64,000 nt of DNA from a virus: IMG/VR virus record IMGVR_UViG_3300013132_000018, positions 1 through 64,000 of that record; one strand, given 5' to 3'. Below are positions 1,890 to 23,837 of this stretch, in pieces. The stretch's first letter is position 1. Every line of letters starts with the position of its first letter. The notes under the pieces are model-generated. The model was not told the DNA's origin, searched no databases, and was given only the letters and a program-made list of their open reading frames with translations. The translations under genes were made by a program, and so were the position numbers.

Positions 1890-2474
1890 ATGAACAGACA
1901 CCACATGCCGGAATCGCTTCTGGCTCGCGTAACCGCAATCCAAGCAACAGTGCAACAACCCTGGCCGGCTGAGGACGGGCCGGAGGTTTTGAAGGCCATT
2001 GACGTGGTTTTTCCGGCAGATGCAGGCACCAAGAAAGTGTTCAACCTGGCCTGCGCCAAGTTGATCTGGCTCCAGTTTGCAAAAGACAAGTCAGAGACCG
2101 CCCGGCTCAAGGTGGTGCGCGAGTCTCTCGCCACCATACTGGCTTTCATTGCGGCGTCCGGTATCGAGCTAGACGACGTTCTGGACTTGATCGTTGGACA
2201 GGTCGAAGAGGTTGGAGACGGCGCCCTGGTGACATCCGAAGACACTGCCAATCTCGACGTCCTGAACGACGAGATCCAGCGCGCAACCAGACTGGCTTTG
2301 CCGGCGGCCACCAAGCAGGCGCTGGTCAAGGCAGCGACGGACGCGTTCGCCGCCGAGATGGAGCATGTGCTTGCGGGGGTAACCGCACGCATGAAAGACA
2401 GCAACCCGCCCCGGCAGCGCGCTGAGGCGGCCATGGCGACACGATACCCGGGCTTGAAGCCGGCGGCGCTGTAG
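1890..2474 (+). CDS. Alpha-helical hypothetical protein
   Basis: 194 residues, almost entirely predicted helix by composition, with Ala- and Leu-rich stretches (LNDEIQRATRLALPAATKQA) and a basic C-terminus. ATG preceded by CAGGGGAATCAACACC, a fair ribosome-binding site. It stands between two terminator-like hairpins, so it is probably transcribed alone. A small virion or scaffold-like protein is possible, but nothing in the sequence identifies it. Confidence 0.6.
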   Translation: MNRHHMPESLLARVTAIQATVQQPWPAEDGPEVLKAIDVVFPADAGTKKVFNLACAKLIWLQFAKDKSETARLKVVRESLATILAFIAASGIELDDVLDLIVGQVEEVGDGALVTSEDTANLDVLNDEIQRATRLALPAATKQALVKAATDAFAAEMEHVLAGVTARMKDSNPPRQRAEAAMATRYPGLKPAAL

Positions 2475-2486
2475 GTTCAGAATCAC

Positions 2487-2518
2487 GCCGGCGGGCGGGA
2501 CAGCCACCGTCCGCCGGC
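2487..2518 (+). terminator. GC-rich hairpin terminator
   Basis: GCCGGCGG (2487-2494) pairs with CCGCCGGC (2511-2518), followed by ATCTATTTT. It lies 13 bases after the TAG of the preceding gene. Confidence 0.55.
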
Positions 2519-2522
2519 ATCT

Positions 2523-3206
2523 ATTTTCACAACCAAGAAAAGTTTTACGGCTTACTGCAAGAGTCAGGGCGGCGGGTCGCCGCGCAAGGATCTCGTTCAG
2601 CAGTTTTTGGACGGGCTGCACAAGCAGGTGCAGTTCGACAGCACTGAGGCGCGCTATTTCTGGAAGATGACTGCGGACGGGCTGCCGTCGGACAAGGACA
2701 GGCTGGATGTCTGTGTCTGCACCAACTCGGCCAGGCTGGTGGCGCGCAGGTTTGGCGGTGCACTACTGGGGTATTCGGCGCGAGACAACCCGGCAGCCGT
2801 GGTGTCGCCACATGACTTTGCGCTTTGCGGGACGCTGGTGGTTGACTACTGGTCCCGCTTTCCAGGAGCTAAGTCCGAGAGCGCGGTGCTGGATTTGTCC
2901 GACCTGTCGCAGCGGCGAGAGGCTTTGCGGCTTTACGGCGATCCGGAGCGCTGGCAGTTGGTCGAGCCTGTGCTGGTATTTCATCCGGAGCAGGCAGATC
3001 TACAGAAGGCGGTGCAGGAAGGCTACGACTGGTATGGCCGACCGACCCGGACGGTGCGTGAGATTTTGATCTGCATGTTCCGCTCCGAGGGTATGGACTA
3101 TGTGGCCGCCAGTGCGGCTGCGGTGCGGGCCATCGCAAAGATGAACCAGGGTTTCAACCAGTTCACTTATGGACGGTTCACGCTGAGCGTGCAGAAGAAT
3201 GGATAA
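2523..3206 (+). CDS. Hypothetical protein with no clear start codon
   Basis: The frame reads as a normal protein from about 2535 (KKSFTAYCKSQGGGSPRKDL) but has no ATG or GTG before it. An ATT at 2523 or a TTG at 2607 are the possible starts, so the product is 199-227 residues. The middle holds CVCTNSARL and a strand-rich segment. The C-terminus (KMNQGFNQFTYGRFTLSVQK) looks intact. The gene starts immediately after a terminator-like hairpin, so a lost ATG, a rare ATT start or an upstream deletion are all possible. Family not recognised. Confidence 0.5.
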   Translation: MFTTKKSFTAYCKSQGGGSPRKDLVQQFLDGLHKQVQFDSTEARYFWKMTADGLPSDKDRLDVCVCTNSARLVARRFGGALLGYSARDNPAAVVSPHDFALCGTLVVDYWSRFPGAKSESAVLDLSDLSQRREALRLYGDPERWQLVEPVLVFHPEQADLQKAVQEGYDWYGRPTRTVREILICMFRSEGMDYVAASAAAVRAIAKMNQGFNQFTYGRFTLSVQKNG

Positions 3207-3345
3207 GCATTCAGATGGAGGCTCTGCAGTCGCCGCGACTGCGGTGGTGGTTACGGGTCTGGCGGTGTTGATGTGCAAGCCGGTGATTTTGCTGCTCGGT
3301 GTAGCGTATCTGTGGCAGCGTTCAGAAGTATCAGACGATGAATAA
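3199..3345 (+). CDS. Small single-pass membrane protein
   Basis: 48 residues. A short acidic and serine N-terminus (MDKHSDGGSA) is followed by about 30 hydrophobic residues with one Lys-Pro break (VLMCKPVILLLG) and a charged tail RSEVSDDE. ATG lies in ATGGATAA, overlapping the upstream stop, and its own stop overlaps the next ATG (GATGAATAA). The double overlap and the clean hydrophobic pattern support a real gene. It could be a lysis accessory or envelope protein; that is not shown. Confidence 0.6.
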   Translation: MDKHSDGGSAVAATAVVVTGLAVLMCKPVILLLGVAYLWQRSEVSDDE

Positions 3346-3841
3346 CAATAGCAAGCTGTTGGAGTTGCTGGCCGTGGGTTATCCTGATGGTCAGTGCATT
3401 CTGGATTCTTACGACCACGACTCCGGGCAGGCCGTCCTGTTCGATGGCGATTCGCTGGCGCACTTTGTCGTGTCCGAGGCATTGTCGGTGACTGATGGCA
3501 AGACGGACCGGCCAAAAGATCCACTCGTCTTTGAAGTCGGTTTGGCCATGCAGAAGGCGTCCGCTGAACTGGCACGGCTGGCCGAGCATTGCCGGCAGGC
3601 TGGCATTCAGCAGATGGTCGATACGTTCTTGCGGGAGATGAAGGACTCCAAGCGACAGTCCTTCTCTGCCGCGACGTTGGAACAGTGGTTGTGCGTAATC
3701 GGCGACACGGACATGCTGCTCATGCAGGACGACATGCTGCTCTGCCTGTGGCGGCATTTTCCGGAGCAGACCCGCGGGACTGGTCCGTGGATTATCACCC
3801 GGGAGGACTTGCTCAATCTGAAGCTGCCGGATAAGGTGTGA
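3338..3841 (+). CDS. Hypothetical protein
   Basis: 167 residues from ATG inside the end of the small membrane-protein gene. Starts MNNNSKLLELLAVGYPDG, followed by an acidic strand-rich section and a helical C-terminal half containing LMQDDMLLCLWRHFPEQ. No recognisable family or catalytic motif. Part of the tightly packed run 3199-5568. Confidence 0.6.
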   Translation: MNNNSKLLELLAVGYPDGQCILDSYDHDSGQAVLFDGDSLAHFVVSEALSVTDGKTDRPKDPLVFEVGLAMQKASAELARLAEHCRQAGIQQMVDTFLREMKDSKRQSFSAATLEQWLCVIGDTDMLLMQDDMLLCLWRHFPEQTRGTGPWIITREDLLNLKLPDKV

Positions 3842-3844
3842 CCC

Positions 3845-4408
3845 ATGCCGGCACGATCTGGAAGCCAACAGCGGTTCATGGGTTTGGTGCATGCGGTGCA
3901 GTCTGGCCGCAAGCCGATGTCTGAAGTGTCACCTGAAGTGGCGCGGGTTGCGCGCACTATGACGCCCAAGGATGTCACGGAGTTTTCCAGCACCAAGCAT
4001 GACGACTTGCCGGCCAAGGTTCGCGCCGCCGAGGACGCGGACTCGCGCAAGTCTGCTCGTTGGACCCACAGCATGCGTCTGGGTTTGGTGATTTCGCCCT
4101 GGTTGATGTTCGGCTTGTCCAAGGCCGCTTCGTTGGAGGCGGCAGTCAAATCGACAGAGAAGCAGCTTAGGGCTGCACAGCAGTCGCGTGAGGCGTCGTT
4201 AAAGGCTCACGCTTCAGCTTTGCAGACGCGGCTGACGGCGGCGATGAACCGGGCGCAGACGGCAGAGCAGTCTGCGCAGCAGGCGCAGTCGGATGGCCAG
4301 GCGGCTCTGTCGGCCATGAGTCAGCCTGGCCCGCAGCCGCCTGCGGCGCAGGTGCCTTACGGGCAGATGCTGGCTGGTGGAGCGCAGATGACCGAGCAGC
4401 AAAAATGA
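3845..4408 (+). CDS. DUF3008-like protein with a coiled-coil C-terminal extension
   Basis: 187 residues. The N-terminus, MPARSGSQQRFMGLVHAVQ with EVSPEVARVARTM and the KDVTEF and HDDLP segments, closely follows the short DUF3008-type proteins common in phages and proteobacteria. The rest differs: residues about 85-150 form a long Ala/Gln-rich coiled coil (EKQLRAAQQSREASLKAHA), and the tail is Pro/Gln-rich. The single-domain family is about 60-70 residues, so this is an extended version. Function of the family is unknown. Confidence 0.65.
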   Translation: MPARSGSQQRFMGLVHAVQSGRKPMSEVSPEVARVARTMTPKDVTEFSSTKHDDLPAKVRAAEDADSRKSARWTHSMRLGLVISPWLMFGLSKAASLEAAVKSTEKQLRAAQQSREASLKAHASALQTRLTAAMNRAQTAEQSAQQAQSDGQAALSAMSQPGPQPPAAQVPYGQMLAGGAQMTEQQK

Positions 4409-5568
4409 TTGTTCAGTTCCCTTCCGGCCGGACGACTTCCTCCGGCCCATCGACAGGAGTGGAGTCAAAATTAGCCAAGGTCAACGGACGTGCGGCTGTT
4501 TTAGACCGGACGCCTGAGTTGGTGGTGCGCGGCCCGTTAAACGGCTATGCCAGCTACGGTCTGCTGGCGCACTGGCTGGTGAGCAGTTTTCTTGATCTTG
4601 GTGTTGATGCGGTGCTCGTGCCGACCAACGGAACTGTCTTCGACGAGAAGTTCGACGCGTTCATCCCCGAGCGGGTGAAGCGGGTGACCTCGTTCGGCGA
4701 TGTTCGGGCGGCGTTCGAGTTGCAGGTCTCGCCGCCTGGCTGGCCGGTAAGCCACGAACGGGCGGTGGTGATGACCATGCACGAGTCCACTAGACTGACC
4801 GGGACGCAGCGGGCAGAGTTGCGCAAGGCCGCTGCGCTGATCACCCCTACCAAGTGGAATGCCAACATGTTTCGGCGTGAGCTTGGAAAGCTGCCGGTTA
4901 ATGTAGTCCCACTTGGGGTGGATCTTTCGGTCTTCCGGCCCCGGGCACTGCCGGCAGGTCCGGCGTGTGTCTTTGGAACCGCCGGCAGGTTTGTCGGTGC
5001 TGGCACACGCAAGAATGTGGCGCAGGTCTTGCGGGTGTTCTTGCGGGAGTTTGACGGCAATCCAAGAGCGAGGCTGCAGGTGAAGTGTTTTCCGGATTGT
5101 CAGGTGGACACGCTTCGACACACCCAGGTGGAGTTTGTCCGCGAGTTTCTGTCTGGTCCGTCGCTGGCTGATTGGTATGCCCGCCAGCACTGCTTCGTTA
5201 GTTCCAGCGCTGGGGAGGGCTGGGGGCTGATGCTGCAGGAGGCCATGGCGGTCGGTCGTCCGGTGATTACCCCGCAGTTTGGCGGGGTAACGGCTTTCAC
5301 GTCGCCGGGTTCGTGCGAGACGGTGGACCATGCAGAGGTCGAAGTGCCGGACGGTGATGAGTATTACGCCGGCTGTCGTGCGGAGGTTTCAGATGATGCG
5401 CTGGCGGCAGGCATGCGCCAGATTTACTCCGAGTGGCAGTCTGGCGCGTTGCGTTGGCGTGGGTGGAAGGCGGCGCAGCAGGCGAGCAAGTTTCCGTGGA
5501 TGGCGTGCCCGCTGGGCGTGCTGGACGTGTTGTCGATGCAGGGGTTCCTACCGTCCCGGTCGGCTTGA
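4405..5568 (+). CDS. GT-B glycosyltransferase (group 1 family)
   Basis: 387 residues. The C-terminal half has the retaining GT-B signature: a VPLGVD segment at about residue 170, a strand-loop after it (FGTAGRF), and the donor-binding ExFG-like stretch SSSAGEGWGLMLQEAMAVG (about 270-288) with the conserved Glu residues and the VITP strand. The N-terminal acceptor half (NGYASYGLLAHWLV) resembles the Gly-rich first loop of these enzymes. A nucleotide-sugar donor is expected; the acceptor is unknown. One of three glycosyltransferases in the window. ATG overlaps the previous stop by 4 bases. Confidence 0.8.
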   Translation: MIVQFPSGRTTSSGPSTGVESKLAKVNGRAAVLDRTPELVVRGPLNGYASYGLLAHWLVSSFLDLGVDAVLVPTNGTVFDEKFDAFIPERVKRVTSFGDVRAAFELQVSPPGWPVSHERAVVMTMHESTRLTGTQRAELRKAAALITPTKWNANMFRRELGKLPVNVVPLGVDLSVFRPRALPAGPACVFGTAGRFVGAGTRKNVAQVLRVFLREFDGNPRARLQVKCFPDCQVDTLRHTQVEFVREFLSGPSLADWYARQHCFVSSSAGEGWGLMLQEAMAVGRPVITPQFGGVTAFTSPGSCETVDHAEVEVPDGDEYYAGCRAEVSDDALAAGMRQIYSEWQSGALRWRGWKAAQQASKFPWMACPLGVLDVLSMQGFLPSRSA

Positions 5569-9087: not shown

Positions 9088-9125
9088 GAGCGCCCCGGTC
9101 ATTGCGGACCGGGGCGCTCTGTTTT
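9088..9125 (+). terminator. Strong rho-independent terminator
   Basis: GAGCGCCCCGGTC (9088-9100), loop ATTGCG, GACCGGGGCGCTC (9107-9119): 13 perfect pairs, then TGTTTT. It separates the beta-fragment region from the DUF3150 / AAA module. Confidence 0.85.
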
Positions 9126-9161
9126 AGACGGCGATTGTTTAGCATGAAAGAAGAGACACGG

Positions 9162-10160
9162 ATGTTGGATGTGCTCACGCGCAACGGCGTGCTGGGTGCG
9201 GTGTGCATTGGCTTCTGGCGTGGGCGCAAGAAGCTCCGGGCCAAGGAGATTGGAATGTCGGAGTCGGATTCGGTGGCGGCGCTGGTGTCGGTCGGGCAGA
9301 AGCGCCTGGTCAAGACGGAGGTGCTGCATCCTTTGACGCTCATCGAAGGGAGGGCGCGCGACTACCTGGCGGTCAATTCGTTTCCATTCATGGATGGGCT
9401 GGCCAACTTCATCCCCAACATCAGGCTGGCTGAGACCCAGCAGCGAATGGATGCGTTCAAGGCCGAGTTTGAGTCGGAGCGCGACAAGTTCATGCAGCGC
9501 TACGACACGCTGCGTCAGGAGAGCGTCGAGGAGTGGCGCAAGACTGCCCCGGAGATCAACAAACAGAATCCTGAGTTCCTCGTGTCGGCCATCGAAGAGG
9601 CGTTTCCGGTGGCGGCTTACGTGCAGGCCAGTTTCAAGTTCGACTTCAAGCTGTTCTCAGTGGGTGTCCCGACCGAGGTGCAGGCCAGTGGTTTGACGAT
9701 GGTGGCAGTGGGTGACCAGTTGGCGGTGATGGAAGCCCGCAAGCGCGCCGCGGCCGAGGCCTCAGCCAAGATCCGGACAGATGCCGACCGGTTCGTCAGC
9801 GAGTGTGTCAAGAGCTTGCGCGAGCAGACGGCCATGCTGTGCTCCGAAATGCTGCAGAGCATCAACGACTCCGAGAGCGGGGTGCATCAGAAGACCCTGA
9901 ACCGGTTGCGCACGTTCATTGGGCATTTCAAGCAGATGAACTTCGTCAATGACACGCAGATGGACCGGATGCTGGCGCAGGCCGAGGCCGAGTTGCTGTC
10001 GAAGTCCGCCAAGGATTACCGGGACAGCAAGGACGCCCAGACCAGCTTGATCAACGGCCTGCAGGCGCTGCGCTCCAAGGCTCAGCAACTGGCGGCCGAG
10101 GATGTGACCGGAGTGGTCAGTCAGTTTGCTGAGGTTGGTTCCCGCAACATGCTGCTATGA
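9162..10160 (+). CDS. DUF3150-like protein
   Basis: 332 residues. The opening (IGFWRGRKKLRAKEIGM, then GQKRLVKTEVLHPLTLIEGRARDYL) fits my recollection of the DUF3150 family, and the rest is largely helical with a coiled-coil-like middle (ESERDKFMQRYDTLRQ). ATG at 9162 is preferred over 9144 because GAAGAG lies 6 bases upstream. The gene opens a run of overlapping genes that continues with DUF1257-, DUF2997- and Ycf46-like members. A role as partner of an AAA ATPase is inferred from this position. Confidence 0.6.
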   Translation: MLDVLTRNGVLGAVCIGFWRGRKKLRAKEIGMSESDSVAALVSVGQKRLVKTEVLHPLTLIEGRARDYLAVNSFPFMDGLANFIPNIRLAETQQRMDAFKAEFESERDKFMQRYDTLRQESVEEWRKTAPEINKQNPEFLVSAIEEAFPVAAYVQASFKFDFKLFSVGVPTEVQASGLTMVAVGDQLAVMEARKRAAAEASAKIRTDADRFVSECVKSLREQTAMLCSEMLQSINDSESGVHQKTLNRLRTFIGHFKQMNFVNDTQMDRMLAQAEAELLSKSAKDYRDSKDAQTSLINGLQALRSKAQQLAAEDVTGVVSQFAEVGSRNMLL

Positions 10161-10791: not shown

Positions 10792-11042
10792 TGGATCTGT
10801 TCATTGATGCCGCCGGCAACATCACGGCGCTGCACTCTGATCTCATCCCGCTACCTGAACTTGGTCGCATGACCACGCGCCGGGTGTCCGACATACGGTG
10901 GTCGGACCCCCGGCAGGTATGGGAGGTGTTCGGATTGGCAGAAGGACGGGTTTTGTTCAGTGATCGGGACCGGTCGGTGTGCCTGTCCTGGGAGGTGGAG
11001 TATTTCAACGGAAAGATTTTGAATGAAGAAGTTCTCGGCTGA
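10791..11042 (+). CDS. Small hypothetical protein of the AAA module
   Basis: 83 residues from an ATG whose A is the last base of the preceding TGA. Starts MDLFIDAAGNITALHSDLIP and contains a RRVSDIRWSD segment, resembling small phage proteins of unknown function with a R.S.I pattern. Overlaps the AAA gene start by 20 bases. Confidence 0.55.
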   Translation: MDLFIDAAGNITALHSDLIPLPELGRMTTRRVSDIRWSDPRQVWEVFGLAEGRVLFSDRDRSVCLSWEVEYFNGKILNEEVLG

Positions 11043-12060
11043 GTTTGTCGGCAGTTACATCCAGTGCGGCAATCCAGGGCTGTTCCTGGTCACGTCGGAG
11101 CAGCAGCGGGTGGAGCATGACTTCTTGGCGCTGGTGCGCGGTAACGTCAAGCTGTCGAAGCACAAGGTGTTCTGTTGGAACATGGCGTCTGGTGTGATCG
11201 ACCGCAAGGAGTGCAAGCAGGTCTCCGAAGCAGCGGATCCGCTGGAGGTGCTTCAACTGTTCGTGTCTCCGGATGGACAGACGTTTCCCGCCAAGTCGGC
11301 AGTGCTGCTGATGGAGGATCTGCATCTGCACCTGGAGGGCGGTGTGCCCAACGCCATTCTGATCAGCGCCATCAAGCGCACGCTGCGCATCGCCAAGTCA
11401 CAGAACAAGACGCTGGTCATGACGGGTTGCCGGTTTGTCCTGCCGCCTGAGTTGGAGCGTGAACTGGTGATGGTGGATTACGCTCTGCCCGATGCTGTCA
11501 TGCTGGGGACGGTGCTGGACAATGTGGTGAAGTCCGCCAACACCGCCATCAAGGCTTCCGGTGGGGGTGAGATCAGCTTGGAGCCGACCGCGCGCGAGTC
11601 GATTGTCGCCTCGGCGAGCGGCATGACGGTAGCCGAGGCCGAGAACGCGTTCGCGCTGTCGCTGGTCCGTCACAAGTCGGTGGTCGCCACGGTTGTGGCG
11701 GAAGAGAAGGCCTCTGCCGTCCGCAAGAGTGGTGTGCTTGAACTCGTTAGCACGCAGCTTTCGCTGAGTGATGTCGGCGGGCTGGAGACCCTCAAGGAGT
11801 GGCTGCAGACCAGGCGGCGTGCGCTGACCAAGGAAGCACGAGACTTTGGCCTGCCGTCCTTGCGGGGCATCCTGCTGCTCGGTCCTCCCGGCACCGGTAA
11901 GTCACTGGTGGCCAAGGCCACGGCCGTGTCGTTTGATGTGCCATTGGTCAAGCTGGACTTCGGGCGTCTGTTCGGCAGTTTGATCGGACAGACGGAGCAG
12001 AATCTACGCAACGCTCTCAACACGGTGGAGGCCATTTCGCCGTGTGTGTTGTGGTGTGAT
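11023..12060 (+). CDS. Ycf46-like AAA ATPase, exon 1
   Basis: 346 codons. The N-terminal domain (about 1-230) is of the Ycf46 type, with a VLLMEDLHLHLEG strand-loop that looks like a degenerate first ATPase domain. The true Walker A is LLLGPPGTGKSLVAKAT (about residues 284-300). The exon ends in the first part of Walker B, PCVLWCD, after which the unspliced frame meets TGA. Joining GAT at 12058-12060 directly to GAA at 12958 restores WCDEIEKGLSG, the expected Walker B, and a 529-residue protein. It is the ATPase of the DUF3150/1257/2997 module; substrate unknown. Confidence 0.85.
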
Positions 12061-12957
12061 TGACATTTGGTCACACCTTAAAACTGTGTGAATTGCTGGA
12101 ACAGCCTTAGAGCCTTGTTACCCTTTGGGTCGAAAAAACAAGGATTGGCCAATCAGCAGCTAAGCCTTTTTGCTGGCGCAAGCTGGTGGATCGGAAAGTT
12201 CAACGACTAGGGCTACGGCCCGTAGCTCCGAAGACGGAGCGAAGCGCACAGGTATTTTGCTTGAAAAGGTTTCTCAACTTCTGCAGCCTGACTGCATGTG
12301 GTCAAGAAACCATAACTGTTGTGTGGTATGCAGTGGTGTCGATTCTCCGCACATGGCCGGTGGCCGGTGTAGTAAATGTTATCAGGCCATCTACAGAAGC
12401 CTCCACAAGGAGCAGATGGCTGAGAGCAAGCGTCGCTGGTATAAGCGTCACATGACTCCTGAGCTTATGCGCAGCATACGCGAGGAACGTCATTTTGGCT
12501 CTAACCGGACGCTGGCTTTGGAGAGAGATGGATTCAAGTGTCAGCTTTGCGAATGCCGCGATCTTAAAAAGCTCGTTGTGCACCACAAAGATGGACATGG
12601 AAGATCTACTGATGCTCCTAATAACGATTTGGATAATCTTCAGACGCTGTGTCGGAAACATCACATCAAGGTGCATTTAGCAGAGTTGCAACTGGCCAAG
12701 AAAGGCTTGCTTGTAATACCTGATAAGATGCGTAAAGGCAGCTACCGTCAGAGACCCATTTCTGGCTGGTCTAGGTTGTATGCGCACTGCGTCGTTTGTG
12801 AGAAATCTGACAGCCCGCACAAGGGAAGAGGTTGGTGTAACCGTTGCGCCCAGCGCAAGGATCTACACCATCTCTACGAGCAAAGTCCAAGATATAGTCT
12901 GAGCTTCAAGGAAACTTGAAGAGGGTGGCTGGTATCGAGCCATCCGAAACAAAACTG
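12061..12957 (+). other. Group I intron (897 nt) in the AAA ATPase gene
   Basis: Evidence for boundaries: the last exon base is U and the last intron base is G, as group I introns require. P1 can form between exon GGTGTGA (12053-12059) and intron TCACACC (12071-12077), with the U at 12060 paired to G12070 as the wobble. P10 can form between intron ATTT (12065-12068) and exon 2 AAAT (12959-12962). The core contains AGTTCAACGACTAG near 12197-12210, typical of P7, followed by two short hairpins. Splicing at these sites restores Walker B exactly. An HNH endonuclease gene lies in the 3' part. Confidence 0.87.
12296..12919 (+). CDS. Intron-encoded HNH homing endonuclease
   Basis: 207 residues. The centre has CQLCECRDLKKLVVHHKDG...NNDLDNLQTLCRKHHIKVH (about residues 82-125): HNH motif with paired Cys. 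A similar Cys cluster occurs at both ends: CVVCSGVDSPHMAGGRCSKC at the N-terminus and CVVCEKSDSPHKGRGWCNRC at the C-terminus, so the protein seems to carry a duplicated zinc-binding module around the nuclease. The codon use is more AT-rich than the neighbours, which fits acquisition. It would cut intronless alleles of the AAA gene near the Walker B site. The ATG has no clear ribosome-binding site; upstream starts are possible. Confidence 0.88.
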   Translation: MWSRNHNCCVVCSGVDSPHMAGGRCSKCYQAIYRSLHKEQMAESKRRWYKRHMTPELMRSIREERHFGSNRTLALERDGFKCQLCECRDLKKLVVHHKDGHGRSTDAPNNDLDNLQTLCRKHHIKVHLAELQLAKKGLLVIPDKMRKGSYRQRPISGWSRLYAHCVVCEKSDSPHKGRGWCNRCAQRKDLHHLYEQSPRYSLSFKET

Positions 12958-13509
12958 GAAATTGAGAAGGGGCTATCCGGCACCAAGTCCGGCGGGGCCT
13001 CTGATGGTGGCGTTATGGATCGCGTGTTCGGTGCGTTCCTTACCTGGCTCAACGAAAAGACGGTAGATGTTTTCGTGGTCGCCACGGCGAACAAGGCAGC
13101 GGAGTTGCCGCCTGAGTTCCTTCGTCCGGGCCGGTTTGACTCCCTGTTCTTCGTTGATCTTCCGACGGCGTCGGAGCGCGAGGTCATCTGGAAGATCCAG
13201 ATGGCCAAGTATGGGCGCAAGCTCAAGGGCTTCGACCTCAAGGAACTGGCGGTCAACACCAGTGGGTTCACCGGCGCCGAGATCGAGGCCATCCTGGTGG
13301 AGGGCCTGCACATGGCATTCGCGGCCGAGCGCGATCTCAAGCAAAACGACCTGCTGGAGGCGCGCAAGCAAATCTCCCCGGTGGCCAAGGTCATGGGCGA
13401 TCAGCTTGTGCAACTGCGCAACTGGGCCAAGGACCGGACCCGTCCGGCCGGGCTGGGTTTCGCTGAGACGCCGACGGCAGAACTTGGCGAGCGTGCACTG
13501 AGCGTATGA
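12958..13509 (+). CDS. Ycf46-like AAA ATPase, exon 2
   Basis: 183 codons plus stop, completing the protein begun at 11023. It opens with EIEKGLSG (rest of Walker B), then SDGGVMDRVFGAFLTWLNEK (with the sensor region VFVVATANK), the arginine-finger block LPPEFLRPGRFDSLFFVDLP and a C-terminal helical lid. All features of the Ycf46 group of AAA ATPases are present, so the spliced protein looks active. A reading from a TTG at 12916 would make an unspliced fragment that lacks Walker A and is not expected to be functional. Confidence 0.87.
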   Translation, partial: EIEKGLSGTKSGGASDGGVMDRVFGAFLTWLNEKTVDVFVVATANKAAELPPEFLRPGRFDSLFFVDLPTASEREVIWKIQMAKYGRKLKGFDLKELAVNTSGFTGAEIEAILVEGLHMAFAAERDLKQNDLLEARKQISPVAKVMGDQLVQLRNWAKDRTRPAGLGFAETPTAELGERALSV

Positions 13510-14907: not shown

Positions 14908-15325
14908 GGGCCTGAATTGGTTTCGACTGCAGATTGTGCGCCGTGAGTTGCATGCCGTGGATGATCGTTGGCCACGCTAAACTTCGATCAAAAGTATCAG
15001 CCAACTCGCAAGAGGACGCTGGTCTGCTCGCCGAAGCGGCTCGCATCATGGGCAACCCTGATGCCGTGCTCGCCAAGTATGAGCAGGCTGTTCTGGCCTA
15101 ACCAAAGCCAGCCGTTCGCCGGGTGACACCTGCTGTCCCGGAACGAACGTCATCAGCAGGTTCAATCAGCAGCCAGGCGACCGGCTGTTGGGTGTGACTG
15201 TCAGGCGCAAACCTTGTCGGCCAGTTCTCCTGGTTCGAGTCGGCAAGTTACTAACCGGGAAAAGCATGTAGAGCTTGCGGTAGTCAGTGTGCAGGACCTC
15301 GGTTCAACCCCGAGCAGGTCCACCA
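14908..15325 (+). ncRNA. ssrA: tmRNA (transfer-messenger RNA)
   Basis: 418 nt. The tRNA-like domain is complete: acceptor GGGCCTG at the 5' end pairs with CAGGTCC (15315-15321, one G.U), discriminator A, encoded CCA; T-arm CTCGG-TTCAACC-CCGAG. The 5' part has the conserved TGAATTGGTTTCGACT, and the 3' part AAAGCATGTAGAGC, close to the bacterial AAGCATGTAGTACC. After AAAAGTATCA the frame GCC AAC TCG ... opens at 15000 and runs 33 codons to TAA at 15099. The tag starts ANSQEDAG and ends YEQAVLA, about three times the length of the ten-residue E. coli tag. It rescues stalled ribosomes with host SmpB; phage copies are known but uncommon. Confidence 0.9.
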
Positions 15326-20099: not shown

Positions 20100-20673
20100 A
20101 CTGGGCTGGGCTTATGAGCCCGAAACTTTGGTTGATGGGCCGGTCTCGGTGACGCCCGACTTCTGGCTTCCCGACATCCAGACGCTGGTGTTTGTGCAGA
20201 CCCGTGTGCTGCCCAGCGACCACTGGGAGGCCAGCATGCGCATGGTGGGGACGCTTGGCCGTCGGACCGTGTTTCTGGAAATGGACCGGCACGTCGTTGG
20301 ACCGATGGAGGACATCCCCGATCCAGCGCGCCTGGTGACCTGCCTCGACGGGTTGTTCAAAGTTGAACCAAACACGGACTGCACCTTCGCCGAGCCGGGT
20401 CAGGGTTGGTTCTGGCACAGCCGCTTTGCCCAGTCCGTTTCGCACATCAAGCAGTTGGCCAGCGGCGCGCATGTGCTGCTGATTCGATGCACCGTGTGCG
20501 GCGTGGTGCATTGGACGCATCGGGCGGGCGACATGCTCTGTCCCCGGTGTCAGTTGGGCAATTCCAGCAAACCTGAGCGCTGGCAGAAGCACATCATTCC
20601 CGCGCTGCATCTTCGGACGATGGCTGAGGTGCACCGGCTGGTTGAACAGGCCCGCAGTTTTTCCGGCGCGTGA
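20014..20673 (+). CDS. Nuclease-fold protein with a zinc motif, catalytic residues doubtful
   Basis: 219 residues. The start follows a common nuclease-like pattern: FRSKVMAEMAWWLDRFELGWAYEPE, then VSVTPDFWLPDIQ (the PDFWLP block of restriction-endonuclease-like phage proteins). In active relatives the next strand carries ExK; here it reads VFVQTR, so the active site may be lost. A CTVCG...LCPRC zinc motif follows at about 150-175. DNA binding is likely; cleavage is uncertain. Confidence 0.6.
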   Translation: MHLQSFVYRNVRFRSKVMAEMAWWLDRFELGWAYEPETLVDGPVSVTPDFWLPDIQTLVFVQTRVLPSDHWEASMRMVGTLGRRTVFLEMDRHVVGPMEDIPDPARLVTCLDGLFKVEPNTDCTFAEPGQGWFWHSRFAQSVSHIKQLASGAHVLLIRCTVCGVVHWTHRAGDMLCPRCQLGNSSKPERWQKHIIPALHLRTMAEVHRLVEQARSFSGA

Positions 20674-23600
20674 CGCCGGCGTTAGCCGAGCCAGCCGGTG
20701 GGAAGTGGTTTGCCCCACCGGCTGGCTTTCAGCGGCTCGACAAACCGTCCGAGGTGGTGTGTCATGTGGACATGCCGACTGCAATCCAGACGCCCCGGCG
20801 GGCAGTGGTCCGTGGTAGCACGCTGACCGAGGCCGACGATACCGACGTAGAGTTTGAACTGGACAGTCCTGATCAGTTCTTCGGCTCCCACATCGGCCTC
20901 ATCCCATTGCGTTCCGCGGTGGCTGGTCCGCGGCTGTTCTACGGTGCACGGTTCTACAACCAGGCTCTTCCTTTGCCGCAGGCTGAAGCTCCGCTCGTGC
21001 AGGCGCTGGCCGACAAGGATGAGCAGGGCCGTTCGTTCGATGAGATTCTCGGCAAGGCGGCAGGCGCTAGGCTGGCCAAGGCTGACGGCGTGGTTCGGGA
21101 CGTGACGCCTGACTGGATTGAACTGGAGCTTTCAGACGGCAAACGTGAGCAGGTCGAGCTTTACAACAAGCTGCCGTTCAACCGCAAGACCAGCCTGACC
21201 AATACCCCGGTGGTGAAGCCCGGCGATCAAGTGCGCTCAGGACAGGTGCTGGCCAAGTCAAACTTCACGGATGCAGAAGGCCGGCTGGCGATGGGGTTGA
21301 ACGCGCGCATTGGGCTGGTGCCCTACCTTGGCAAGTCCATGGATGATGCCGTGGTGGTGAGCGATGCGTTCGCACGCCGGCTTTCCAGCGAGCACCTCTA
21401 CGGCTACGACCTGGACAACCGCAATGGCATCAAGTTCGGCAAGGCCCATTATGCCGGCATCTTCCCTGGACGTTTCATCAAGGACCAGTTGGAGAAGCTG
21501 GATGATGACGGGGTGGTGCGTCCTGGCATGCTGGTGCAGCCTGGCGATCCGCTCATCCTGGCTACCCGGCCTCGCGTAGTGTCCAGCACGTCCGCCCAGC
21601 TTGGTTTGCTCAGCAAGCACATGAAGAACGCGCGCACCAATGCCGCTTTGCTGTGGGATCACGACGAACCAGGGACAGTGACCGATGTGGTCCGCCTGCC
21701 CGACGGTTCGGCCAAGGTCAACGTGCAAGTCATTGAGCCTACGCGACTTGGCGATAAGATCGTAATGCGATCCGGGCAAAAAGGGATAATTTCCGAGATC
21801 CTCCCTGACGACCAGATGCCACGCACGGCTGACGGCCATCCGTTGGAGGTTCTGCTCAATCCGCTGGGCATCCCCTCGCGGGTGAACAACTCGCTGGTTT
21901 ATGAGCTTCTGCTCGGCAAGGCGGCACGCAAGAGCGGCAAGCCGTTCAAGCTGCCGGCGTTCCTGCCGGAAGGTCAGCAGTGGGACAAGATCGTTGAGCA
22001 GCATTTGAAGGATGCTGGGCTGACTGACACTGAGGAGGTCTATGACCCCAAGTTTGGGCGCAAGCTGGAGCGGCCGGTGACGGTGGGCGATGGTTACGTG
22101 CTCAAGCTTCATCACACGTCAGCATCTAAGATTTCTACTCGCGGACAAGGGAGCTACACTTGTTTTGATGATATTACTGAAGTGTGCACGCGTCGAGGCT
22201 GGGTGGCGTGGCCGGATGTAACAGCCGACGATGAGTTCGCGACTGCAGATGACGGCAAGCTTGTGTTCAGTAGGGCCAGCCGTATCACAAAAGAGTTTTA
22301 CTCTGGAGAATTGGTAGGGTTTGAGGGACGGTATTTGGATTGGCTTGTGACTCCGAACCATAACCTTTTGGTCAAGTTCAGAAAGCCATCTAGTCGATTG
22401 CGTATGGAGCGCGCTGATGCGCTGTTCGGTAGGTCGTTCTACGTGCCTCAGTTTGGGTTTGCTGAGTTGCATGGTAGAAATCCTCGGCGTTTTGTTTTGT
22501 CCGGTCGCGTAATTAGAGACACTCTTGGTAGGGTGTATAACACTCCTGGGTTTGAGTGCGAGTTTGAAGACTTTGCTGATTTTGCGGGATGGTGGTTGTC
22601 CGAAGGCGAGGTTCGTTTGACTGAAGGCAGAGTTAAGTTATACCAGTCAGAGAAAGCCAATCCTGCAAAGTTCCAACAGATTGAGTCGCTTTTGAAGCGG
22701 CTAGGCGTGGCCTTCAACGCTATCCGAAGGAATGGGGTGGGTGTAGGATGGCAGTTCGCCAATAAATCATTGGCTTTTTTTCTGGCTAGTGAATTCGGGT
22801 CTGGTTCTGTCAATAAGAAGATACCAGAGTTTATGCTTTCGGCGGGTTTGTCGGCGCGTCGTAGAATGTATTCCAGCATGATGCTAGGCGACGGGACTGC
22901 CGATTCATCCGGTATGGATGTGTGCTACAACACCTGCTCCAAGAGACTGGCTGATGATTTTCAGCGGCTGTGCATTGGGCTTGGGTTTGGGTCAGTGATA
23001 AGTTATAGACCGGCTACTACTAGTAGTGCTATTAGAGGCAGAGTAGTTCATTCTGGACCTATATGGCGTTGTGGTGTCAGCCTTCGTAGGAAGTTTGCCT
23101 TGGTCGAGAATTACAGCAATCGACCCACAAGGCATTATCGCCAGCACTATGAGGGATTTGTTTATTGCGCTACTATTCCTGTAACCGGCTTGTTGCTAGT
23201 CCGCAGAAATGGTAAGCCTATGTGGTCTGGTAATTCAAACGAGCAACCCGCCCACGGCGGCGGCGAAACGGCTCAGGCCAAGCGGTTGTCTGGACTGGAG
23301 TCGCGCGCTTTGATCTCGTCGGGGGCCTACAACGTCCTGCGCGAAGGAGCTACGCTGCGGGGCCAGCGCAACGACGAGTATTGGCGTCAACTGCGCATGG
23401 GCCTTCAACCCCGGGACCCAGGTCGTCCGTTCATGTTCTCGAAGTTCCTGGCCATGCTGTCCGGTGCCGGCTATCTGGCGCGCAAGCTGCCCAAGGACCG
23501 GTATCGGCTTCAGTTCATGACCGATCGTGATCTGGATGGGTTGAATCCAACGGAATTGTCCAACGGTGAGATAGTTGACATCGGCACGTTCGAGCCGGTA

Positions 23601-23837
23601 AAGGGCGGTCTGTTCGATCCGTCCATCACTGGCCGGCAAAGCTGGGGTGCCATCAGGCTGCCCCAGCCCATGCCGAATCCGGCAGCCGAGGATGTGATCA
23701 GAAAGCTGCTCGGGTTGACACAGAAAGAGTTTCGTTCGGTGCTGTCCGGCGAGATGGAGTTGCCGGTAGAGACGCTGCAGAGACTGAGACATGAACAACA
23801 AGGAGTTGGACGCGGCAGTGCTGGAAGCGGTGGATAA
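20670..23837 (+). CDS. RNA polymerase beta subunit, C-terminal fragment with intein
   Basis: 1055 residues from GTG, about 697 after removal of the intein. The N-extein holds IGLIPLRSAVAGPRLFYGA and LPLPQAEAPLV (beta around NMQRQAVP), then KSMDDAVVVSDAF and GDKIVMRSGQKGIISEILPDDQMP with LLNPLGIPSRVN (beta catalytic block; both Lys of GDK and QKG kept). YVLKLHHT follows, with the conserved His. After the intein come SNEQPAHGGGETAQAKRLSG and LESRALISSGAYNVLREGA, the beta C-terminal clamp segment. This is the third piece of the subunit begun at 5612 and 7625. Confidence 0.9.
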   Translation: MTPALAEPAGGKWFAPPAGFQRLDKPSEVVCHVDMPTAIQTPRRAVVRGSTLTEADDTDVEFELDSPDQFFGSHIGLIPLRSAVAGPRLFYGARFYNQALPLPQAEAPLVQALADKDEQGRSFDEILGKAAGARLAKADGVVRDVTPDWIELELSDGKREQVELYNKLPFNRKTSLTNTPVVKPGDQVRSGQVLAKSNFTDAEGRLAMGLNARIGLVPYLGKSMDDAVVVSDAFARRLSSEHLYGYDLDNRNGIKFGKAHYAGIFPGRFIKDQLEKLDDDGVVRPGMLVQPGDPLILATRPRVVSSTSAQLGLLSKHMKNARTNAALLWDHDEPGTVTDVVRLPDGSAKVNVQVIEPTRLGDKIVMRSGQKGIISEILPDDQMPRTADGHPLEVLLNPLGIPSRVNNSLVYELLLGKAARKSGKPFKLPAFLPEGQQWDKIVEQHLKDAGLTDTEEVYDPKFGRKLERPVTVGDGYVLKLHHTSASKISTRGQGSYTCFDDITEVCTRRGWVAWPDVTADDEFATADDGKLVFSRASRITKEFYSGELVGFEGRYLDWLVTPNHNLLVKFRKPSSRLRMERADALFGRSFYVPQFGFAELHGRNPRRFVLSGRVIRDTLGRVYNTPGFECEFEDFADFAGWWLSEGEVRLTEGRVKLYQSEKANPAKFQQIESLLKRLGVAFNAIRRNGVGVGWQFANKSLAFFLASEFGSGSVNKKIPEFMLSAGLSARRRMYSSMMLGDGTADSSGMDVCYNTCSKRLADDFQRLCIGLGFGSVISYRPATTSSAIRGRVVHSGPIWRCGVSLRRKFALVENYSNRPTRHYRQHYEGFVYCATIPVTGLLLVRRNGKPMWSGNSNEQPAHGGGETAQAKRLSGLESRALISSGAYNVLREGATLRGQRNDEYWRQLRMGLQPRDPGRPFMFSKFLAMLSGAGYLARKLPKDRYRLQFMTDRDLDGLNPTELSNGEIVDIGTFEPVKGGLFDPSITGRQSWGAIRLPQPMPNPAAEDVIRKLLGLTQKEFRSVLSGEMELPVETLQRLRHEQQGVGRGSAGSGG
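22161..23234 (+). other. Intein with LAGLIDADG endonuclease inside the beta fragment
   Basis: 358 residues. Block A: CFDDITEVCTRRGWVAWPDV, with Cys1 and T-E-V. Block B: LDWLVTPNHNLLV with the TxxH of splicing domains. C-terminal blocks: VYCATIPVTGLLLVRRNGKP and MWSGN, ending Asn with Ser as the first C-extein residue; the penultimate residue is Gly, not the common His. Two LAGLIDADG-type helices, DFAGWWLSEGEV and MMLGDGTAD, mark a homing endonuclease. Codon use in the intein is more AT-rich than in the exteins. Excision joins GSYT to SNEQP, a normal beta sequence. Confidence 0.93.

Follow-up and report, generated by a model that had tools for sequence, protein, structure and literature searches.

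Introduction

Group I introns are spliced in two steps initiated by guanosine, and homing is the usual role of the HNH ORFs that they carry. In phages such introns occur in conserved protein genes, where their endonucleases target the codons of critical residues (PMC3984707). Such elements usually insert at active-site motifs (PMC3984707, PMC11620839, PMC5050341), and introns and inteins at the catalytic motifs of phage genes are an already known pattern. The DNA polymerase introns of the Bacillus phages SPO1, SP82 and Bastille and of the cyanophage Pf-WMP3 (I-HmuI, I-HmuII, I-BasI, and I-PfoP3I) have a core of subgroup IA2, an HNH-type ORF and a short P10, which is 4 bp long in Pf-WMP3, and the subgroup criterion stated for Pf-WMP3 is the presence of P7.1 and P7.2 joined by GUA (PMC3428280). 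In PhiPA3, the group I intron of gp210, which likewise holds an HNH homing endonuclease, sits just after two conserved Asp residues of a virion RNA polymerase beta subunit (PMC11620839). Further, the Walker B motif of mycobacteriophage terminases, which are ATPases, is the site of another selfish element, the TerL1-e intein (PMC5050341).

The locus described here lies in the window, that is, the whole stretch of 64,000 nt that was analysed (positions 1 to 64,000 of IMG/VR record IMGVR_UViG_3300013132_000018). It shares with the DNA polymerase introns the IA2 core with P7.1-GUA-P7.2, a phage protein gene as host, an HNH-type ORF and a short P10, whereas its host gene encodes an AAA ATPase and its HNH ORF lies in P8 rather than starting in P6a as in Pf-WMP3. 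As in PhiPA3, the insertion directly follows a functionally important Asp, although the gene is a different one, and homing and competition, which are experimental in PhiPA3, are deductions from sequence in the window. The position within Walker B recalls TerL1-e, but the latter depends on protein splicing and interrupts a different ATPase family.

Results

The host contig and the interrupted ATPase gene

The intron-bearing gene is encoded by the + strand of a viral contig of 167,647 bp. The contig is assigned to a virus of bacteria without placement, and its viral status rests on the IMG/VR classification and a phage-like RNA polymerase; searches of the contig for hallmark genes with two terminase models, sheath and phrog_2 found none. 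Several other elements of this virus were observed. An RNA polymerase beta-like frame (Rpb2 domain 6; window 20670-23837, +) is interrupted at the conserved KISTRGQGSYT/SNEQPAHGGGETAQAKRLSGLE by an in-frame, intein-like insert that begins with CFDD, ends with WSGN and has a LAGLIDADG-like domain, so that an intein seems to accompany the intron in this virus. Outside the window, a frame of 1322 aa at contig position 80233 weakly matches RNA polymerase beta-prime, which makes a multisubunit RNA polymerase likely. A virus-encoded tmRNA (window 14908-15325, +; Rfam 108 bits) has an unusually long tag frame of 33 aa, ANSQEDAGLLAEAARIMGNPDAVLAKYEQAVLA, and a DUF3150 protein (window 9102-10160, +) is encoded a few genes 5′ of the ATPase.

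The ATPase gene is present as two pieces. Exon 1 (11023-12060, +) runs from the start codon to the Walker B aspartate D346, with an open frame, a Walker A motif GPPGTGKS and full-length homology to phage relatives, and exon 2 (12958-13509, +) runs from the Walker B glutamate E347 to the stop, with the sensor N391 and the arginines of PGRFD intact. Read alone, the upstream frame spans 11023-12063 and closes with UGA directly after the Walker B aspartate, while the downstream frame is without a proper start. When 12060 is joined to 12958, a single open frame of 529 aa (...VLWCDEIEKGLSG...) with an intact Walker B (WCD/EIEK) is produced, which scores 92.9 bits against the AAA domain PF00004 (cut-off 21.2), holds a lid domain as well, and includes the Walker A, Walker B, sensor and arginine finger that mark an AAA ATPase. 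The protein had been proposed, tentatively, to be Ycf46-like; its named matches were AAA (PF00004), phrog_8638, and CDC48-type models, and full-length relatives on cyanobacterial plasmids are annotated simply as AAA family ATPase. In an alignment of the window with seven phage relatives, D346, E347 and K350 were invariant in all eight sequences, so that the insert does fall between the catalytic Asp and Glu of Walker B, as had been proposed; N391, R402 and R405, which are encoded 3′ of the insert, were likewise invariant. Because the catalytic residues on both sides are conserved in this way, both exons look functional.

Identity and boundaries of the intron

The whole window was searched on both strands with the Rfam model of the group I catalytic intron, RF00028, and positions 12034-12921 were matched with 67.4 bits (E 6e-15), above the curated cut-off of 50 bits. 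The intron, 897 nt at 12061-12957 (+), has a GC content of 49.5% vs. 61.3% for the exons. Exon 1 ends with GAU at 12060, the intron ends with its terminal guanosine (omega G) at 12957 (+), and exon 2 begins with GAA at 12958. The U-terminal exon, the G-terminal intron and the one restored open frame place both splice sites exactly where the original prediction had put them. Shifting both sites by +1 (U12061/G12958) would also give a U.G pair and a terminal G, but this alternative was rejected since it creates GAU-UAA, a stop, and the proposed sites are therefore the only sensible ones.

The first intron codon, UGA at 12061-12063 (+), is in frame with exon 1, so translation of unspliced RNA would end at the Walker B Asp, in agreement with the earlier view that the gene would depend on splicing. 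The same codon bears on whether the insert could be an intein or another in-frame protein insertion: inteins do occur at phage ATPase motifs (PMC5050341), and the RNA polymerase beta gene of the same virus seems to have one, but here the frame of exon 1 closes at the very first codon of the insert, which already refutes a protein insertion, and the insert has a strong group I score and no intein match. The probability left to an intein is close to nil.

The ribozyme core

Each helix was checked base by base. P1 (12053-12077, +) is formed by the exon sequence GGUGUGAU and the internal guide GGUCACACC with 10/10 pairs and has the anticipated wobble, U12060.G12070, at the 5′ splice site. A P10 had also been anticipated, and its strand AUUU (12065-12068, +) pairs with AAAU of exon 2 (12959-12962) in 4/4 bp, although it is short and leaves a G-G mismatch at exon position +1. 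P3 (12084-12251, +; 12084-12090 with 12245-12251, 7/7) encloses P4, P5, P5a, P5b and P6, in which all pairs stand, with 6/6 pairs in P4 and 3/3 in P5 plus 11/11 in its extension. The guanosine-binding helix P7 (12205-12899, +) pairs GACUA (12205-12209) with UAGUC (12895-12899) in 5/5 positions, which bears out the predicted P7 core and agrees with RF00028. Between P7 and P3, positions 12210-12240 (+) form two hairpins, GGGCUACGGCCC-GUA-GCUCCGAAGACGGAGC, namely P7.1 (GGGC and GCCC around UACG), the GUA linker, and P7.2 (GCUCCG and CGGAGC around AAGA), which is the mark of subgroup IA2. P8 (12254-12886, +; 12254-12263 with 12877-12886) has 10 bp, all of them paired (10/10), and most of the endonuclease ORF lies within its loop. 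P9 (12904-12921, +), with a GAAA tetraloop, is paired in 7/7 positions, as RF00028 and the alignment also indicate, and P9.1 (12923-12945, +; 8 bp) in 8/8. The core without the ORF loop folded better than 200/200 shuffles (z -3.2). Neither the subgroup nor the endonuclease ORF in P8 had been part of the original prediction.

As the source is a metagenomic viral contig, the insert might be a disruption that does not splice, either a dead ribozyme or an assembly chimera, and the ATPase a pseudogene. However, all core helices are intact, joining at the splice sites restores the frame with single-base precision, the catalytic residues of exon 2 are kept, and a chimera would not have a guide complementary to its own exon, which makes such a disruption very improbable.

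Covariation with other phage and viral introns

A pattern search located, in another viral record (L171; IMGVR_UViG_3300012209_000063, 1140-1360), an intron that lacks an ORF and whose core (GUUCAACGACUAG ... GCGCACAGG) closely resembles the present one. It scores 95.9 bits with RF00028 and lies in a gene different from that of the window, probably a capsid gene. Core similarity was also detected by blastn in Acinetobacter phage P577, Pseudomonas phage KIL1, and Staphylococcus phage PT1-4, all above the RF00028 cut-off. In P577 (L173, 1439-2046), two group I introns lie within about 600 bases that have no annotated genes. In KIL1 (L174, 267-489 and 1948-2263), group I introns are located at the terminase and portal genes, each of which is annotated as two joined pieces. 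In PT1-4 (L175, 1974-2246), the lysin annotation consists of two amidase genes separated by an HNH gene, a split that a group I intron would explain.

The cores of seven introns, that of the window and six other phage or viral ones, were aligned by MAFFT. Over the 43 pairs of the structure, 91.5% of the cells in the seven introns were paired, and two-sided changes were found in 24/43 pairs, a count that 0/500 shuffles reached; when the partners were slid by one to three columns, pairing fell to 34-48%. P7 was invariant across the seven introns, while compensatory changes were located in P3, P5, P6, P7.2, and P9. The structure was derived from the window, itself one of the aligned sequences, which somewhat favours the score, yet a window-derived structure alone would not explain the compensatory changes in these five helices. 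Further, the MAFFT alignment is faulty in the P3/P7.2 region of PT1-4 and in places along the KIL1 terL intron, errors that lower rather than raise the pair counts. Helices and covariation thus agree with the RF00028 score and the exact restoration of the frame, and at the level of sequence analysis the insert is confirmed as a real group I intron of subgroup IA2.

The site is empty in relatives

Both exons were compared by tblastn with 167 homologous loci, comprising about 140 distinct IMG/VR contigs and seven named phages. The exon junction was continuous in 167/167 loci (0 to -12 nt), so that the 897 nt are found in the window only; consistently, the named phage records match the ATPase in one piece. 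No second genome with an intron at the same site was present among the 167 loci, from limited collections in which identity to the nearest relatives is just about 40%. The query of a second IMG/VR search was exon 1 alone, ending at the Walker B Asp, so that intron-bearing relatives were as findable as empty ones. No close relative of exon 1 was found in a single-protein search of IMG/VR.

The HNH ORF

An ORF for a putative HNH endonuclease, of 207 aa from its first ATG, occupies 12296-12919 (+). Its frame is open from TTG 12170 and the start is uncertain, no clear Shine-Dalgarno sequence precedes ATG 12296, and its 3′ part overlaps P8, P7 and P9, ending at 12919 inside P9. The ORF matched the PHROG HNH families phrog_119, 8048, 1271 and others (E 3e-9 to 7e-6), and was below the Pfam cut-off (HNH_3, 6.7 bits vs. 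24.8). By reading, the H-N-H pattern is kept (VHHKDG...NNDLDNLQTLC..HH). The endonuclease has an unusual architecture, in that the HNH core lies between two copies of one CxxC...SPH...CxxC finger (15/29 identical, E 4e-9). Structure prediction without an alignment was uninformative (pLDDT 38).

No PDB chain was matched at E values up to 10, solved homing endonucleases of the I-HmuI type included, and no similarity was found to the ORFs near the P577, KIL1 and PT1-4 introns. Single-protein searches of IMG/VR and GTDB gave no close relatives. The best relatives overall (34%) are HNH genes that stand alone on plasmids of Pseudomonas aeruginosa. Since the ORF is without a match in the PDB, shows no kinship with the ORFs near introns of similar core and has free-standing plasmid genes as its best relatives, ribozyme and ORF probably have different histories. 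The sole IMG/VR match, on viral contig L003, was rejected as a related intron; on that contig, a group I intron-like stretch (2153-2416) is followed by a polymerase-like frame (2458-4527) that holds the HNH in an intein-like insert.

Given the intact HNH-type ORF in P8, the intron is probably a mobile element capable of homing, and it is this ORF that makes mobility likely. It is conceivable instead that the ribozyme splices but is no longer mobile, the ORF being untranslated or its product non-cutting, with the intron inherited vertically. The absence of an intron at this site among the relatives, of a strong ribosome-binding site before ATG 12296 and of a close HNH relative in the viral and genome collections would fit such a loss, while an ORF that is open throughout and keeps the H-N-H pattern and both finger copies is unlike a decaying gene. 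Loss of mobility is thus the less probable outcome, though one with an appreciable chance.

Discussion

As a whole, the locus is very probably best explained by a self-splicing group IA2 intron that restores Walker B and homes by means of its HNH ORF. Direct support comes from the sequence, the structure, the covariation, the open frame, and the empty site in relatives. From these we infer splicing activity, an effect of the stop codon, DNA cleavage and mobility, in the following scheme. P1 and P10 would hold the splice sites in the transcript, a free guanosine bound in P7 would attack after U12060, and the new 3′ OH of the exon would then attack after G12957, joining the exons and restoring the D-E of Walker B. 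The UGA that opens the intron may stop ribosomes before the ribozyme is disturbed, while in unspliced RNA it would truncate the protein at the Walker B Asp; it fits the view that ribosome stalling at an early in-frame stop helps the intron to fold (PMC3984707). The most likely role of the nuclease encoded in P8 is to cut or nick alleles without the intron at the conserved site, after which recombination repair would copy the intron in.

Splicing could in addition act as a switch, with unspliced RNA giving a 346-aa protein that may serve as an inhibitory subunit until splicing is favoured. If true, this product would be a nucleotide-binding half without the catalytic Glu or the arginine fingers, but we consider such a role very unlikely.

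In the literature covered by our incomplete search, no report of a group I intron in this AAA ATPase family was found, and the Cdc48-like AAA ATPase (phrog_8638) is probably a new host gene for phage group I introns. The finding probably enlarges the small set of phage genes that harbour such introns, and an endonuclease without kinship to the ORFs of introns whose cores are similar is in line with separate histories of ribozyme and endonuclease. In this clean case of a selfish element, the insertion point falls precisely between the catalytic Asp and Glu of Walker B, and exact loss would be the only escape tolerated there; the case also suggests that the ATPase matters to the virus.
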